This document shows, piece by piece, positions 15,723 to 26,336 of a DNA stretch of 64,000 bases (position 1 is its first letter; each line of letters starts with the position of its first letter). The stretch comes from Sulfitobacter sp. F26169L. GTDB taxonomy: Bacteria > Pseudomonadota > Alphaproteobacteria > Rhodobacterales > Rhodobacteraceae. Both the position numbers and the translations under genes were made by a program. The notes under the pieces were generated by a model, which saw nothing but the letters and a program-made list of their open reading frames with translations, made no database searches and was not told the origin of the DNA. The stretch covers positions 186,001 to 250,000 of the forward strand of contig NZ_JAPMLP010000003.1 in the NCBI RefSeq assembly GCF_026410285.1, given 5' to 3'.

Positions 15723-16028
15723 TCAGCCCTTCATCACGTTGACGTCTTCCACGGCGATACTGCCGCGGTTCCGGAAGAAACAGACCAGAATAGCCAGACC
15801 GATCGCCGCTTCGGCGGCTGCAACCGTAAGAACAAAAAGCATGAAAACCTGCCCGACCAAATCACCGAGGAAACTGGAGAAGGCGACCAGATTGATATTC
15901 ACCGCAAGCAACATCAGTTCGATGCTCATCAGCAGGACGATCACGTTCTTGCGGTTCAGAAAAAGGCCAAAGATGCCAATGACAAACAGCGTCGCCGCTA
16001 CCGTCAGATAATGTTCAAGTCCGATCAT
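15723..16028 (-). CDS. nuoK: NADH-quinone oxidoreductase subunit K
   Basis: A 101-residue membrane subunit of complex I with three helices. It carries the conserved glutamates in [17 protein letters not shown] and [16 protein letters not shown]. The ATG at 16028 ([14 protein letters not shown]) gives the normal ~100-residue length. An in-frame start at 16061 would add 11 unconserved residues. It is separated from the upstream 23-aa peptide ORF by 72 bases. Confidence 0.97.
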
Positions 16029-16100
16029 GTCGTCCCTCAAATTCCCGCTCGCACGGAGCAATAGTCAGTCAGCGCCACCGGCTCTTTGGCGCTGCGTATT

Positions 16101-16172
16101 TCACAAGAAGCTATAGCCGCCAAGCACAATGATTAGAACTACGATCAGCACGACCCAGGTGTTACGTGACAT
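16101..16172 (-). CDS. Candidate 23-residue single-helix membrane peptide inside the nuo operon
   Basis: A 24-codon ORF between nuoJ and nuoK. It encodes a basic N-terminus (MSRN), then an almost uninterrupted hydrophobic segment (WVVLIVVLIIVLGGY), and ends in SFL. AGGGAAG lies about eight bases upstream of the ATG, a good ribosome-binding site. The nuoJ stop is 95 bases upstream and nuoK starts 72 bases downstream, so it has its own unhurried slot in the operon. It looks like a one-helix inner-membrane peptide. Such peptides can be small subunits, assembly aids or regulators of membrane complexes. No homology can be claimed from sequence this short. Confidence 0.55.
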   Translation of the reverse strand: MSRNTWVVLIVVLIIVLGGYSFL

Positions 16173-16267
16173 TGCTTACTTCCCTATCATTTCTGGCCGG
16201 ACCTGTTGCCGCTTGTAAGGCAACTCCGGCAAATTCAACGTCCGTGCCAGCGCGGCACGGAGCATAC

Positions 16268-16873
16268 TTAACGCAATCCCTGCCCCGGTTTCACGTCATG
16301 CAAGTTCATCGCCTTGGACGGATCGCGCATCATTTGGGCAACCACATCCTGACGCTTCACATCGCCACGGTGGCGCAGTGTCAGAACAATCGCACCGATC
16401 ATTGCAACCAGCAGGATCAGGCCCGACAGCTGGAACAGGAGGAAATAGTCATCATAAAGAACCATCCCCAATGCGTTGGTGTTAGCCACCGCCGTGTCGG
16501 TCACTTGCGCGCGCAACCCTTCGGCCGCCGCGTTGCTTTCCCACGCGCCAAACGCCATGACGAACTGCATCAAGATCACAAGGCCAATCAGCAGCGCCAG
16601 AGGCATGTATTTCGCCATTTCGGCCTTCAGCTCGGCAAAGTCGACATCCAGCATCATCACCACAAACAGGAACAGCACCGCCACGGCGCCCACGTAAACG
16701 ATGATCAACAGCATCGCGACAAATTCCGCGCCGAGCAGCACGAACAATCCCGCCGCCGACAGGAATGCCAAGATCAGCCACAAGACCGAGTGGACCGGAT
16801 TACGGCTAACCACCGTGAACAGACCGCCTGCAATCACGCTGATCGCAAAAAGATAAAATGCAAAAACGCTCAT
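16268..16873 (-). CDS. nuoJ: NADH-quinone oxidoreductase subunit J
   Basis: A 201-residue membrane subunit of complex I with five hydrophobic helices. It includes the conserved [20 protein letters not shown]-like region (here starting [15 protein letters not shown]) that carries the pi-bulge helix near the E-channel. The first codon overlaps the stop of the upstream CMD-family gene by ATGA. The C-terminus is hydrophilic. Normal length for the family. Confidence 0.96.
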
Positions 16874-17286
16874 GTGTCACCTTCCGCTTTTCCGGCGGTT
16901 TCGCCGTCGTCCAGAACTTCTTTGGCCAGATCCATTGCGCGTTGCATTGCGGGAATGCCAGCGAATACTGACATCTGGCCGATTGTCTCGATAATTTGTT
17001 GCTTGTGCGCGCCCGCTTCCATCGCGTGCCGTACAGTCTGCCGCACTGCTGTATCGTTCTGCGCGCCCTGCATTGTCAGCCCTGCAAGCGTCAGCAACAG
17101 ACGCGTTTTTGCATCGAGCCCGTCGGGGTTCAGTTTGTTGCCAAAGAATGTCTCCATCATGTCCTTGGGCATCAGCCCCATCATGGATTCAAATCCCTTG
17201 GGCGAAAACGCATCCATTGCCGGAAAGGTTTTTGCCATTTCCTGCGCCTGCTTCAACATATCTTCCCAAGGGTTTTTATCAGTCAT
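16870..17286 (-). CDS. Carboxymuconolactone decarboxylase (CMD)-family protein in the nuo operon
   Basis: A 138-residue protein. Its second half (about residues 55-120) matches the CMD/AhpD helical fold: [20 protein letters not shown], then [20 protein letters not shown] and [10 protein letters not shown]. AhpD-type CMD proteins use a CxxC pair, but this protein contains no cysteine at all, so alkylhydroperoxidase chemistry is excluded. The first 50 residues are amphipathic and Met-rich ([18 protein letters not shown]). It overlaps nuoI upstream and nuoJ downstream by ATGA, so it is translated with the complex I genes. A role in complex I assembly or quinone handling is only inference. Confidence 0.85.
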
Positions 17287-18819: not shown

Positions 18820-19203
18820 TCACACCGTCGGGATGCCTTTTTCGCGGCAGCTTTGCGTTACCACTTCAGCATCAATAGTCTTCAAGCCTTTGGGCAGGCT
18901 CGGCGAGATTGTGTAAACAGCATCAGCGCGCCAAATGCCACCCTCAATTGCTACATTTGTCCTTACATGTCGCGCAAAACCGTACCCGCGTATCAGCGTA
19001 TACTGCGCCGCAGCACATTCTGCGTAGGCCGAGACATTATCAGGCGCAAGCGCCTTCGTCATCGCAACATTGAACTGCACAAGATCGCCGTCCAGCAGCA
19101 CGGTTTCCACCCCCTTGTATTCGGGAATGAAATCCTCTGCTGTTGGTGTCGCAGGCTCACATCCGGCCAGCGCCAAAAAAGCGATCAGCCCTTTGTCTCT
19201 CAC
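18820..19203 (-). CDS. Small lipoprotein between nuoG and nuoH
   Basis: A 127-residue protein with a short signal sequence ending in the lipobox LALAGC (Cys near residue 15), so it should be lipid-anchored and face the periplasm. The mature part has two further cysteines (YAEC and QSC), which could form a disulfide. The start is a GTG overlapping the nuoG stop (GTGA). Function unknown. Its layout (lipobox, a DG...QF segment, a central Cys, a C-terminal Cys) resembles the lipoprotein at 21733-22065, so the two may be distant paralogs. Confidence 0.8.
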
Positions 19204-21219: not shown

Positions 21220-21618
21220 TCACTTTATCCTCAGCAACGAGCCGATGCGGCTCGATTTTTGAATCTCTTTGCGCCCCAATGCGCAATAGCTTTGCGGGTC
21301 GGACGCCACAACCCCGTTGGCGTTCATATATGCCTCGCCCTTGGCGCGCATCCGCGCCTTTTCCTGATCCGAGTCGGCGTATGCGTCAATCTCGTCGTCC
21401 GTAAACCCCAGCGAGCGGGCGTGCGCACGCACCGATCGGTAAAGCGATAGTGCCTTGATGACGCGCGCCGAAATGTCAGGGCACTTCTTTCGTATCTCGT
21501 CAGCTACAGCAACATCAAAAACTGCATCATCGACCGCGCGCACATCGCGCAGGTTTTGTTTAGCCGAGACCCCGCCGGCGGACATCACAATGAAAAGGGT
21601 GATTATCAGGTTACGCAT
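21220..21618 (-). CDS. Secreted DUF5333-like protein
   Basis: A 132-residue protein with an N-terminal signal peptide ([18 protein letters not shown], probable cleavage after A). The mature part is helical, with two cysteines (KKCPD and SYCALG) that could pair in the periplasm. The ATG at 21618 is chosen over one at 21633 because GAGGAG lies seven bases before it. It matches my recollection of DUF5333, a Rhodobacteraceae family found in this same nuo position. Function unknown. Confidence 0.8.
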
Positions 21619-21732
21619 ATGTGCTCTCCTCAAATGCTTTTACGGGCTATTGCCCTTGTCGGCATGTGGGTCGGGATCCCTTTGTTATGCAATAACAGCG
21701 CGCACCCGGCGGGATACACACTAGCGGTTGGA

Positions 21733-22065
21733 TTATCGTGCGTCGGGGCATTGTCCCTGCAAGGTGAGTGTATCTTTGTCGATGGAAAGCTGCGCTTGGG
21801 GGGCATCGGGTCCCGCCGTCCAGATGATATCGGAACTACCAAAAAGGTTGACGCAATGAACCACCGCTTCATAGCGGCCCGCTTCACGTGCGCCCAGCAA
21901 TGACTTTGAAACAGGCTTTACCGTGACTGTGAACTGGTCGAGCTGGCGGTCGATCTTGCGCAGTTTTGCATTGTAATATTGACCGTCGAAAAAGATACGG
22001 TCTTCGGCCGAGGTGCAGCCTGCAAGAAGCCCTGCGCACAGCGCAATACCTGTCCAATTGTTCAT
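21733..22065 (-). CDS. Small lipoprotein in the nuo operon
   Basis: A 110-residue protein with a lipobox LLAGC (Cys near residue 17), so a probable periplasm-facing lipoprotein. Two later cysteines (VVHCVN and GQCPD) may form a disulfide. The ATG at 22065 follows GGAGGAG by six bases. A GTG at 22080 is possible but would consume that ribosome-binding site. Function unknown. It is spaced 114 bases from the DUF5333-like gene and 256 bases from the MAPEG gene, a looser part of the operon. Confidence 0.8.
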   Translation of the reverse strand: MNNWTGIALCAGLLAGCTSAEDRIFFDGQYYNAKLRKIDRQLDQFTVTVKPVSKSLLGAREAGRYEAVVHCVNLFGSSDIIWTAGPDAPQAQLSIDKDTLTLQGQCPDAR

Positions 22066-22321
22066 CACCGTCTCCTCCACACGCAGCCGTGCGGCTAATT
22101 ACGTAACTTTGTGCCTGTTATTGCGCAAATTATCAGGCAGGGCCAGTGCTTCTTCGTTCTGTAATGTTTTGCGATGGCGCCACACTAATGCGATGCTCAA
22201 AGCCCAATGCAGCGCAGCCATTTGCCGCACGATCATTAGTAATGCCGAGAAAGACCATGTTCGATAGATCGCTCACCAGCCTTTGCGCGCCCCTTCGCGA
22301 GAAATATACCAACATGACAGC

Positions 22322-22729
22322 TTAGAATGCCGCGATCACTGCCAGAACAGCAGTGATGATGATGCAGAACCAGCCAATAACATACGACACAGACCGCATC
22401 GCCTGATTTTCTGTACGAATGTGAACGAACGCCATCACCAGACGGGATACCAGAAAAACCGATGCAAGGATGTTTACCATTAGCGGGGATGCCCCTGCCA
22501 ACATCGCGGCCAGTGTAGCGGCAACATAAGGACCAGAAGTTTCGACCGCGTTCATAAATGCGCGCTCGCTGCGGTAAGCCGGATCACTATAGTCCCGCTT
22601 TGGCTTACCACAGCCACACCGGTTTTCGGCGGTCCGGCCCCGCGTGCTATTCAGCGACAGCCCGACCACAAGCAAAGCCCACAGGGCGAGCGACGCGATG
22701 GCGTGACTATATTGCGCAAATTGGTCCAA
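22322..22729 (-). CDS. MAPEG-family integral membrane protein
   Basis: A 135-residue MAPEG-type protein (membrane-associated proteins in eicosanoid and glutathione metabolism) with four hydrophobic helices. The typical core is ERAFMNAVETSGPYVAATLA followed by FLVSRLVMAFVHIR. A hydrophilic loop (CGCGKPKRDYSDPAY) sits after helix 1. I choose the TTG at 22729: GGAG stands seven bases upstream and spans the nuoF stop. An ATG at 22801 would overlap nuoF by 68 bases and add a basic non-family leader. Glutathione or redox-lipid chemistry is only inferred from the family. Confidence 0.8.
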   Translation of the reverse strand: MDQFAQYSHAIASLALWALLVVGLSLNSTRGRTAENRCGCGKPKRDYSDPAYRSERAFMNAVETSGPYVAATLAAMLAGASPLMVNILASVFLVSRLVMAFVHIRTENQAMRSVSYVIGWFCIIITAVLAVIAAF

Positions 22730-22733
22730 CCCC

Positions 22734-24038
22734 CTACTCCGCAGCGACAGAGCCGACGCGGCCCGTGCGTTTATGGGCAATCCGCTCTTCGATCTCGTCA
22801 CGGAAGTGTCGGATCAAACCCTGAATAGGCCAAGCGGCAGCGTCGCCAAGAGCACAGATTGTGTGGCCCTCTACCTGCTTGGTCACGTCCAGCAGCATAT
22901 CGATCTCTTCCGGTTCTGCATCGCCCCTTACCAAACGCTCCATCACCCGCATCATCCAGCCCGTGCCTTCACGGCAAGGAGTACACTGGCCGCAGGATTC
23001 ATGCTTGTAAAACGCGGCCAGACGCCAGATCGCCTTGATCACATCGGTTTGCTTGTCCATCACAATCACTGCTGCGGTTCCAAGGCCCGAGCGCTGTTCG
23101 CGCAAGTAATCGAAATCCATAATCGCGTGGCGCATCTCGTGGCCGGGAATCAGCGGGACCGAACTACCGCCCGGAATAACCGCCTTAAGGTTGTCCCAGC
23201 CGCCGCGAATACCACCGCAATGTTTTTCGATCAGTTCTTCAAAACCGATGCTCATCGATTCTTCGACAACACAGGGGTTATTCACATGCCCCGAAATCGC
23301 GAACAGCTTGGTTCCCGCATTGTTAGGCCGACCAAATCCCGCAAACCAGCCACCGCCACGGCGCAGGATTGTCGGCACAACCGCAATGGATTCGACGTTG
23401 TTCACAGTGGTCGGGCAACCGTACAGGCCCGCACCCGCCGGAAACGGCGGTTTCATGCGAGGCATGCCTTTTTTACCCTCAAGGGATTCAAGAAGCGCGG
23501 TTTCTTCACCGCAGATGTAGGCTCCCGCACCATGTGCGAGGTACAAATCAAAATCCCAGCCTGACTTGGCTGCGTTCTTACCCAACAGACCTGCATCATA
23601 GGCTTCGTCGATTGCAGCTTGCAGCGCTTCTTTTTCGCGAATGTATTCGCCGCGGATGTAGATGTAACAAGCATTTGCGTTCATCGCAAAGGACGCGATC
23701 AGGCACCCTTCGATCAATGTGTGCGGATCGTGGCGCATGATTTCGCGGTCTTTACAGGTGCCCGGCTCGGATTCATCGGCGTTCACCACCAGATAGCTGG
23801 GCCGACCATCAGACTCTTTGGGCATGAACGACCATTTCAGGCCCGTGGGGAAACCCGCACCGCCCCGCCCGCGCAGACCGGAAGCTTTCATCTCGTCGAT
23901 GATCCAGTCGCGGCCCTTTTTAATGATGTCCGCCGTCCCATCCCAATGGCCCCGTGTTTGCGCACCCTTCAAGGTGCGGTCATGCATGCCGTAGAGGTTG
24001 GTGAAAATCCGGTCTTTATCTTGCAACATGGTGCTCAT
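22734..24038 (-). CDS. nuoF: NADH-quinone oxidoreductase subunit F
   Basis: The 434-residue NADH-oxidising subunit of complex I, binding NADH, FMN and cluster N3. The FMN/NADH glycine loop is [18 protein letters not shown] (about 55-72). [16 protein letters not shown] follows, and [11 protein letters not shown] plus a later C (HTICALGD) supply the N3 [4Fe-4S] ligands. The first ATG overlaps the DUF5337-like gene stop by ATGA. Full family length. Confidence 0.98.
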
Positions 24039-24259
24039 CCGTCTTTCTCAGATTGGCGCAAACGCCACATTCTGAATGCTTGTATAAAGACCCATAGAAA
24101 CACGGCAGCGATGCCGAGCTCCAACAGGCCCATTGTTTGGTTTGACCATCCATAGATAGTCCCTGCAGCTTCGATTGCTATAAAAGCAAACGCGCCCACA
24201 ACACTTACGATCGCAAGGTGTCGCCCGTTGCGTGACAGTTGATCATCGTTTTCCGCCAC
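24035..24259 (-). CDS. Small two-helix membrane protein, DUF5337-like
   Basis: A 74-residue protein with two hydrophobic helices (about residues 14-34 and 42-62) and basic ends. It starts with GTG, six bases after GGGAG, and its stop overlaps nuoF by ATGA, so it is coupled to nuoF. I recognise it as resembling DUF5337, a family of Rhodobacteraceae nuo operons. The function is unknown. An accessory or assembly role in complex I is inferred only from position. Confidence 0.75.
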
Positions 24260-24274
24260 GAACTGCTCCCTGCT

Positions 24275-25093
24275 TTATGTCTTTTTCTTCTTCTTCGAGA
24301 ACTCCGTCTCGCCGCCCTTGGCCAGTATTTTAGCCTGCGACATCCAGCCGTCCCGCTCTATCCGGCCCTTAAAACGCAGGTTTTCATCCACCCACGCGAT
24401 GTCTTTCTTCTTCCACTTTGAAACCTGGTCAAAGTGATAGACCCCAAGATCATTCAAAGTCTGTTCAAGCTTGGGACCAACGCCGCTGATCAGCTTGAGA
24501 TCATCTTTCCCTTCGGGGCGCGGCGCGGCAAGCATTGTTTCCGGCTTTTGGCCACTTGTTTTCGCTGCTGGCTTCGTCGTAGCTGCTGATGCCGTCGCTC
24601 TGCCAGCATTTGGCTGTTTTTGAGCAATTACCGCAGGTTTCGCAGCATTTTGTGCCTCTTTGACGCTTTCACTTGGCCCGTCAGCGATCCCTGAGCCTTG
24701 CTGTACTGCATTAGCTGTCTGGCTGAATGCAGCAGATGACGTAGTGTTTGTGCCTGCTTTTGTACCCGCTGCTGCTCGTTTGGGGGATCTCGTTCCAGCC
24801 GCCGTATCTACAGCTTTATTATCAGGCGTTGTGATCGTATCGGATGCAGCGATGCCTGCCGCAGCCCCCTCTGGAATGGCAGACGCAAAACCGATTGCTC
24901 GGGAGCGTCCATTGCAGAATGCGTTATTGAGAATAATTCCCAACCCCACGCCAATCAGGGCACCAAGCAGCAAAGAAAGTGAAAAAACGGCGTTTGCGCT
25001 CCAGAAAAGAAAAGCAAACGAAAGCGCGCCTGTCAGAGCCGCAATGCTCCAACAAATCATGCCACACTTTGTGCTGTTCTCTTTCATCGCCAT
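24275..25093 (-). CDS. Membrane-anchored protein with NuoE-type C-terminal HhH domain
   Basis: A 272-residue protein. Two hydrophobic helices at about 11-55 anchor it. A long Ala/Thr/Lys-rich linker (about 70-200) follows, then a C-terminal helix-hairpin-helix-like domain from about 205: DDLKLISGVGPKLEQTLNDL and WVDENLRFKGRIERDGW. The same domain ends NuoE, encoded immediately upstream, where it reads [20 protein letters not shown]. The two are clearly paralogous, and a tail duplication is likely. The start may be 25093 or 25087; neither has a strong ribosome-binding site. Function unknown. Confidence 0.8.
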   Translation of the reverse strand: MAMKENSTKCGMICWSIAALTGALSFAFLFWSANAVFSLSLLLGALIGVGLGIILNNAFCNGRSRAIGFASAIPEGAAAGIAASDTITTPDNKAVDTAAGTRSPKRAAAGTKAGTNTTSSAAFSQTANAVQQGSGIADGPSESVKEAQNAAKPAVIAQKQPNAGRATASAATTKPAAKTSGQKPETMLAAPRPEGKDDLKLISGVGPKLEQTLNDLGVYHFDQVSKWKKKDIAWVDENLRFKGRIERDGWMSQAKILAKGGETEFSKKKKKT

Positions 25094-25130: not shown

Positions 25131-26336
25131 CTAGTTATACCGACCGTCTTTACCCGCTTTCGTAGAAAATTCGGTTTCTTCACCGCGTGCCAGTTTACCC
25201 GCTTGTTCTACCCAGTTGTCACGTGATGCACGGCCCTTGAAGCCTTCAAGGTTCCGGTCAACCCACGCAAGCTCGTCCTCACCCCATTTAGCGATCTGGT
25301 CATAGTGGTAAAAGCCCATGGAGTTTAACAGGCCTTCAAGTTTTGGTCCAATACCCTTGATCAGCTTCAAATCATCTGCACCGGCTTTGCGCGGCGCGCT
25401 CATGGTGCGGGGCTTCTTGCCGGCGCGCGGGGTCTCTGTGCCGGACTCTGCCTTTGCATCAGTCTTCGGTTCCGGTGCGGGTGTGCCGCGTGCAGGTTTG
25501 GCTTTGGCTTCCACCTCGGGCGCTTCGCCTTTAACTTCCGACACCTGATCAGATGCGACACCACGCTTGCGGTCGACTTCCGGATCGTCGCCTCGTTTGG
25601 CAGGAGGCTTCTCGCCTGTGTTCGCAGCTTTGCCCTGCCAAGGCGTCAACAACGGCACCTCTGTACCATCGATCCGTTTGACCGTATCGCCTATGTCCGT
25701 CGCCAACTGCACTGACGCGTTATATCGGGTTTTTCCGCTATCATATTCGGTAAGCGAAGTCAGCCCGCCAAGCGGTTCGGAGGCATAACGGCCATTTTGC
25801 GGCCCCGGAACGGGAACGTTGCCAGCCGCCAGTTCATCAAGAATTCTGGTAAAATTCTCGGCAGTCAAATCCTCGTAATAATCCTTGCCGATCTGCGCCA
25901 TCGGCGCGTTGGAACACGCGCCCAGACATTCCACTTCTTCCCACGAAAACTTGCCATCCGCGCTGAGTTCGAACGCTTTGGGCGCAATTTTTTCGCGACA
26001 AACACCGATCAGGTCTTCTGCGCCGCAAATCATGCAGGACGTGGTGCCGCAAATCTGGATATGGGCCACCGAGCCGACCGGCGCGAGTTTGTACATGAAA
26101 TAGAACGTCGCCACTTCAAGACCGCGGATATAGGCCAGATCCAGCATGTCGCAGACATATTCGATTGCCGGACGGGTCAGCCACCCCTCCTGCTCATGCG
26201 CGCGCCACAACAGCGGGATAATCGCCGATGCCTGACGGCCTTCGGGATATTTGGTGATCTGCACTTCGGCCCATGCCTGATTGTCAGGAGTGAAGGCGAA
26301 GGACTCGGGTTGTTCAGGGTGGAGACGGCGGAGCAT
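25131..26336 (-). CDS. nuoE: NADH-quinone oxidoreductase subunit E with C-terminal extension
   Basis: The 24-kDa-type subunit of complex I carrying the [2Fe-2S] cluster N1a. Ligands are in CGTTSC (near residue 95) and CLGAC (near 137). The product is 401 residues, about twice the usual length. After the NuoE fold (about 1-235) comes a charged Pro/Lys/Glu-rich linker (about 235-315), then an HhH-like domain, [20 protein letters not shown] and onward to [18 protein letters not shown]. This extension is known in Rhodobacteraceae but has no assigned role. The ribosome-binding site is weak and the gap to nuoD is 81 bases. Confidence 0.95.

Follow-up and report, generated by a model that had tools for sequence, protein, structure and literature searches.

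The window analyzed here, a stretch of 64,000 nt from Sulfitobacter sp. F26169L (NZ_JAPMLP010000003.1, positions 186,001 to 250,000), carries a nuo operon in which nuoJ and nuoK are separated by a spacer of 239 nt. A small open reading frame (sORF) lies in this spacer on the same strand as both genes, and the sequence 5' of its start reads ...GATAGGGAAGTAAGCA-ATG (Table 1). A 23-residue hydrophobic ORF between nuoJ and nuoK, preceded at good spacing by its own AGGGAAG site, had been pointed out in an earlier note made from the sequence of the window, and both features were borne out. Only two of the 418 ORFs of 20–40 aa on the two strands of the window reached a Kyte-Doolittle mean of at least 2.0 over 17 residues; the sORF ranked first with 2.92, and it is the only one of the two most hydrophobic small ORFs in the window that has a Shine-Dalgarno-like motif.

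Table 1 Features of the nuoJ-nuoK junction, in coordinates of the window.
Feature	Position	Strand	Remark
sORF, predicted 23-aa single-helix membrane microprotein (MSRNTWVVLIVVLIIVLGGYSFL)	16101–16172	minus	ATG to TGA
Putative ribosome-binding site of the sORF, AGGGAAG	16179–16185	minus	6 nt before ATG
nuoJ, upstream neighbor of the sORF	16268–16873	minus	
nuoK, downstream neighbor of the sORF	15723–16028	minus	
Spacer upstream of the sORF, with two hairpins	16173–16267	minus	z −2.15 for 16172–16267
Hairpin TCCGTGCCGCGCTGGCACGGA (TCCGTGCC/GGCACGGA), directly behind nuoJ	16241–16261	minus	resembles a terminator but has a poor T tail; chance expectation 0.4
Nested stem GCCGGA-GTTGCC/GGCAAC-TCCGGC	within 16173–16267	minus	second upstream hairpin
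Spacer downstream of the sORF, with hairpin AGCGCCA/TGGCGCT, weaker second hairpin, then nuoK ribosome site GAGGGACGAC	16029–16100	minus	

The predicted product is a single membrane-length hydrophobic helix of 23–25 aa across the family, below the size limit of about 50 aa that we applied. It consists of a short polar N-terminus containing Arg, about 12 aliphatic residues, a GG[YF] motif and a short end, and AGG-containing purine-rich stretches precede most of the homologues displayed. The earlier note had further argued that a gap of roughly 240 bases would be unusual if it were empty. The length was accurate and the argument overstated: two gaps of similar size between ORFs of at least 80 aa (24039–24274, 236 nt, and 22081–22321, 241 nt) are present in the same operon, and gap size alone is therefore weak evidence for the sORF. 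A 29-aa ORF directly behind nuoJ (16176–16265, minus strand) is not hydrophobic and had no counterpart among the ORFs listed for the relatives; we took it as a by-product of the two hairpins.

To compare the junction among relatives, we used named loci fetched by NuoJ (best 80 of 565) and a genus sample of 58 genomes, Sulfitobacter-like by the named loci, for which the surroundings of nuoK were fetched by NuoK; L065, in which nuoK was not found, was left out. The nuoJ-nuoK spacer spans 2 to 1,099 nt in the named and genus loci. We read homologous ORFs of 23–25 codons in 47 loci, and two of these ORFs start with GTG. Carriers among the named strains include Sulfitobacter marinus DSM 23422 (L036), S. 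litoralis DSM 17584 (L023) and S. brevis DSM 11443 (L058); in S. mediterraneus DSM 12244 (L003) the spacer measures 73 nt and is without the sORF. Several named loci and genomes represent the same organism. The coding tests were performed on unique sequences, with the 47 loci reduced to 38 unique coding sequences and 32 distinct peptides.

Variation among these sequences is that of a protein-coding frame. Pairwise differences in the 38 unique sequences averaged 0.274 at the first, 0.082 at the second and 0.542 at the third codon position, with pS of 0.593 and pN of 0.181 over 703 pairs. The pN/pS ratio was 0.303 on 150 sampled pairs and 0.977 in 300 column permutations (sd 0.234, minimum 0.548), none of which was as low. 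The ORFs had been picked by a pattern that calls for M1, one of a few residues at position 2, a run of aliphatic residues and GG, so that M1 and GG are kept partly by construction. We therefore repeated the codon test without codons 1, 2, 18 and 19, and the ratio was still 0.325, compared with 0.924 after permutation (sd 0.252, minimum 0.524; 0/100 as low). M1, S2, R3, L13, G18 and G19 are invariant in the 32 peptides, position 20 is Y in 29 of them, and most core positions swap V, I, L, A or F. The start, the ribosome site and the C-terminal end are retained among the homologues. These comparisons strongly support that the sORF is a protein-coding gene under purifying selection.

An ORF that arose by chance and has no function is barely credible as an explanation. 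The sequence compared amounts to only 69 coding bases and low-complexity hydrophobic helices arise easily, but none of the 300 permutations was as constrained, nor any of the 100 that omitted the codons favored by the picking rule, and the start and ends of the sORF are preserved in the genus and six further genera while the surrounding spacer sequences diverge widely among relatives. The spacer could also have been conserved as an RNA element, and the earlier note had regarded a conservation pattern favoring RNA structure over codons as evidence against its proposal. For the ORF this was not what we found. Folding compared with shuffled sequences gave z of +1.56 for the sORF in the window, 0.05 for the downstream stretch and −0.54 for the whole spacer. 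In relatives, the mean z was −0.04 for the ORF and −1.33 downstream (41 sequences, counting each combination of ORF and downstream stretch once and omitting L119, in which the downstream part is longer than 150 nt), and upstream stretches of at least 40 nt gave a mean z of −1.88 (n = 24). With variation concentrated at third codon positions and an ORF that folds like shuffles, the sORF was rejected as an RNA element, and neither structure nor chance explains its conservation.

The flanks are structured on average and the ORF is not, which indicated that the stem-loops form a separate layer. One or two of them are found between the sORF and the nuoK ribosome site in the genus. In the eight sequences of the window's clade, 4 of the 12 predicted pairs of the downstream stem-loops stay paired through two-sided changes, and RNAalifold finds only 3 pairs in 18 other sequences (MAFFT alignment); this covariation is partial and suggestive only. 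Searches of Rfam with the spacer returned one chance-level row (E 3.9, 13 bits vs. a gathering score of 70), a search limited to the sigma-70 consensus found no promoter-like site on either strand of 15900–16400, and there is no terminator-like site 3' of the sORF. Intercistronic hairpins in the puf operon set the relative expression or stability of mRNA segments. The stem-loops before and after the sORF may have such an effect on the expression or stability of their segments and may set the expression of the sORF apart from that of nuoJ and nuoK; the hairpin directly behind nuoJ could lower transcription into the sORF and nuoK.

Stem-loops placed before nuoK would also suit a regulatory peptide of the leader or arrest type, which would act on these structures by being translated and would have no working role as a protein. 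The downstream structure of the genus noted above is in keeping with such a peptide, as are a core rich in Val, Ile and Leu and a C-terminal GG[YF] that is kept. We nevertheless consider it quite unlikely and disfavor it, because the ORF ends only 10 nt (L160) or 24 nt (L157) before nuoK in two other genera, which leaves no room for such stem-loops, and because V, I and L interchange freely, which is in keeping with a helix rather than with a codon sensor. In addition, the stem-loop stretch is kept in L095 and L120, where the sORF is absent, and the downstream stretch of the window itself has neither a terminator-like site nor a z below that of shuffles.

We then traced the sORF through the genus and beyond with a profile (A1) built from genus sequences, 23 of the 32 distinct peptides. 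A1 matched 40 of the 58 genus genomes, once in each, and all 40 strong matches adjoin nuoK. The matches include the source sequences of the profile, and the new information is the finding that none of the 58 genomes has a second strong copy away from nuoK. Two weak matches fall within longer frames, one in another family (E 0.008) and one in the genus (E 0.045). For the evolution of the gene we used a DNA tree of NuoJ and NuoK in which 54 of the 58 genus genomes were placed; G004, G006, G037 and G049 were left out, and of these G037 carries the sORF near a contig end. The sORF is present in 39 and absent from 15 of the 54 resolved junctions. The presence/absence label needs 13 changes on the tree, which also took in 34 further family rows and in which many deep forks are open; at least 6 changes are forced by starred branches, and the mean for shuffled labels was 29.5. 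This distribution fits an sORF that was present in the ancestor of the genus and then lost repeatedly. A decayed copy, with the start and three codons gone, was found in L096; this was the only genome with the disrupted frame in a retained spacer that the earlier note had thought would speak against a gene.

Outside the genus, A1 gave seven matches at E < 1e-3 (G284, G279, G273, G103, G308, G145 and G162) in a family sample of 345 genomes, about one per genus. Six of these are located between nuoJ and nuoK, and the seventh, G308, is partial and adjoins nuoK at a contig end. The comparison of relatives that the earlier note had recommended thus did reveal a conserved short helix ORF, in 40 genus genomes and at these seven matches. 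In total, the sORF is present in about 8 of the 344 genera of the family sample. Complex I therefore works without the sORF, which is absent from more than a quarter of the resolved genus junctions and from most genera, and the sORF is not an obligatory or core subunit.

The genomic link of the sORF to complex I genes is stable, and helices similar in sequence are nevertheless found elsewhere. Three weaker A1 matches (G158, G425 and G420, E 0.002–0.0094) have neither nuoJ nor nuoK nearby. A widened profile (A2) included the six other-genera peptides found by A1; its strong matches to those six are not independent, and we relied on A1 instead. In the 345 family genomes, A2 found no further member at the nuoJ-nuoK junction and matched G233 (E 3.1e-4) and G420 (E 7.8e-4) away from nuoJ and nuoK. 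Another 22 rows reached up to E 0.1, three of them without a locus, and no NuoJ or NuoK is near the others. In a class sample of 337 genomes, two matches beyond the family reached E ≤ 0.01 (1.0e-5 and 9.3e-4), and neither nuoJ nor nuoK was found in their fetched flanks.

In size and composition, the peptide resembles Ibs and TisB, which are small hydrophobic type I toxins. A toxin-like peptide with an antisense RNA is most improbable here, as the sORF is co-directional inside an operon and has its own putative ribosome site, G000 has a single match, neither strand of 15900–16400 has a site resembling the sigma-70 consensus, and the fixed link to nuo would have no evident meaning for a toxin.

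A second single-helix family, of 26 residues, is located at the same junction, where it often overlaps or touches the nuoJ stop codon (L006, L007, L015, L025, L026, L106, L109, L111, L116, L192, L196, L197, L215-L225 and L227-L229). A profile (A5) of twelve peptides of 24–29 aa from other loci, starting at or near the nuoJ stop, gave 15 matches at E < 1e-3 in the same 345 family genomes. Fourteen of them are between nuoJ and nuoK, which places the second family at this junction in 14 further genera, and one, L226, is elsewhere. Three of the 14 genomes (G351, G398 and G438) had contributed sequences to A5, some of the other 11 may be the same organisms as named loci in A5, and the helix is degenerate in one of the 14 (L229). 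The second family is also codon-constrained, with a ratio of 0.510 vs. 0.979 after permutation (0/100 as low; 19 unique sequences from 22 loci, with ORFs picked by a pattern requiring a GY[FL] end). Homology between the two helix families was not detectable, as the profile comparison aligned only a GY pair. Both families occur in tandem in four genus genomes (L106, L109, L111 and L116).

Taken together, we consider it probable, judging from coding constraint and fixed location, that the sORF encodes a single-pass microprotein of the membrane that serves complex I as an accessory subunit or assembly factor. Our confidence is held at this moderate level because the gene is dispensable and because its translation and its binding to complex I are deduced indirectly. 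In the mechanism we propose, ribosomes would translate the sORF on the nuo mRNA after NuoJ and before NuoK, and the peptide would insert, with its N-terminus inside, at the membrane site where this section of the membrane arm is being produced. It would then pack against the membrane arm as an optional accessory subunit or an assembly or stability factor, in analogy to NdhP on cyanobacterial NDH-1 and CydX on cytochrome bd. The earlier note had suggested a membrane-helix peptide of a size often seen in respiratory complexes, and this was partly borne out. A conserved single-helix gene in a fixed place, under purifying selection on its codons and with its start, ribosome site and C-terminal end kept, is what we found; synteny makes it a candidate subunit of complex I, and the repeated losses in the genus show that it is not an obligatory one. 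Two further points count against a role in complex I. Operon synteny proves co-expression at most, at a junction that carries many unrelated inserts elsewhere, and similar helices were matched away from nuoJ and nuoK by A1, by A2 and in the class sample.

The same points raise the question of whether the sORF is a real membrane microprotein that sits in the nuo operon merely for steady expression and acts elsewhere, for example on another respiratory complex, a transporter, a protease or translocase, or in membrane stress. Small single-helix proteins that have been characterized work on larger membrane partners whose genes need not be adjacent, and this precedent, together with the frequent loss of the sORF and the tolerance of the junction for passengers that its many unrelated inserts in other genera suggest, lends such a role some weight. 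A passenger, however, should sometimes turn up elsewhere, and the sORF has no strong copy elsewhere in the 58 genus genomes, all seven of its matches at E < 1e-3 in other genera are at the junction, and a second helix family occupies the same place. We therefore regard a role away from complex I as unlikely, though worth weighing, and continue to favor a partner of complex I.

As a more speculative extension, it is possible that unrelated single-helix microproteins were recruited at least two times at the nuoJ-nuoK junction of the Roseobacter group as optional complex I subunits near the NuoJ/NuoK hinge, where they might modulate proton pumping or membrane-arm assembly in different lineages; we put this forward only tentatively. 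Coupling near this hinge is debated. The bacterial complex I is regarded as a core of 14 subunits with few additions, and genes as short as the sORF tend to escape annotation. If the proposal is true, small membrane partners of bacterial complex I have been overlooked, with two unrelated single-helix genes at one junction, the first of them fixed there in a marine genus. Close relatives without the sORF are natural knock-outs for comparison.

Small membrane peptides are established in other respiratory enzymes; the enzyme of CcoM, for instance, is cbb3 oxidase. A close parallel is that of NdhP and NdhQ, single-transmembrane peptides of less than 5 kDa of cyanobacterial NDH-1, a relative of complex I; NdhP was mapped to the distal NdhD1/NdhF1 unit, and the NdhP mutant had no detectable NDH-1L (PMC4131877). 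The sORF peptide differs from NdhP in being encoded inside the nuo operon, in occurring in Roseobacter-group bacteria, in being often lost and in a binding to complex I that is putative, and it matched no named family among the family models; the likeness is one of kind. CydX, CydY and CydZ are different small proteins in the cytochrome bd operons of different lineages (PMC4325964). Like the predicted sORF peptide, they are small and have their genes within a respiratory operon, and the two helix families at nuoJ-nuoK form a parallel to their diversity, but the enzyme is another one and the function of CydX has been experimentally shown. CcoM, a respiratory subunit of 36 aa (PMC10433244), likewise belongs to another enzyme, and its sequence relation to the sORF was checked by family searches only. 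Accessory subunits of an alphaproteobacterial complex I are represented by NDUFS4, NDUFS6, NDUFA12 and CI-PIMT of Paracoccus denitrificans, and a single-helix membrane peptide is not mentioned among these extras in the available part of that paper (PMC11522691).

Database searches did not connect the sORF with a described family. No Pfam or NCBIfam model scored above its cut-off for the two members scanned, and profile A2 matched no PDB chain at E up to 5. One sORF homologue was weakly similar to the 24-position small-protein model of E. coli YoaJ (NCBIfam NF011343; E 0.01), but its 15.7 bits are far under the 54-bit cut-off. Among the open-licence papers listed, including those found with nuoJ and nuoK by name and covered by titles and the beginnings of abstracts, none reported a small ORF between nuoJ and nuoK, and the nuoJ-nuoK sORF is not mentioned in the accessible parts of a paper on sORFs of marine biofilms (PMC11683478) or of the sORFdb paper (PMC11796252).

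Several further elements were observed at the junction and in the operon. The spacers of L003, L012, L082-L091, L095, L118, L131 and L133 contain palindromes that resemble GGAATTTTT..AAAAATTCC and CGTTTTCTT..AAGAAAACG, either exactly or with mismatches. The exact CGTTTTCTT..AAGAAAACG pattern has 5–7 sites per genome in the five relatives searched and is a dispersed repeat; it is absent from the window and its genome. In Ruegeria, Antarcticimicrobium, Mameliella and other genera, the junction is occupied by membrane proteins of 41–84 aa, each with a helix and a basic stretch (L035, L038, L042, L045, L047, L054, L056, L060, L068, L071, L194, L198, L209 and L211), and proteins of 130–200 aa with signal-peptide-like starts as well as soluble ORFs are also found between nuoJ and nuoK in other genera. 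The junction thus resembles a hot spot for insertions within a core operon. Within the nuo operon of the window, additional ORFs outside the set of core nuo genes lie on the minus strand at 16870–17286, 18820–19203, 21220–21633, 21733–22080, 22322–22801 and 24275–25093. The nuoE-like ORF (25131–26336, minus strand) has a long C-terminal extension, the last part of which, DDLKLI.G.GPKLE..L...G.YH.DQ..KW, recurs at the end of the neighboring 272-aa ORF at 24275–25093; we take the common part to be a shared domain of the helix-hairpin type.
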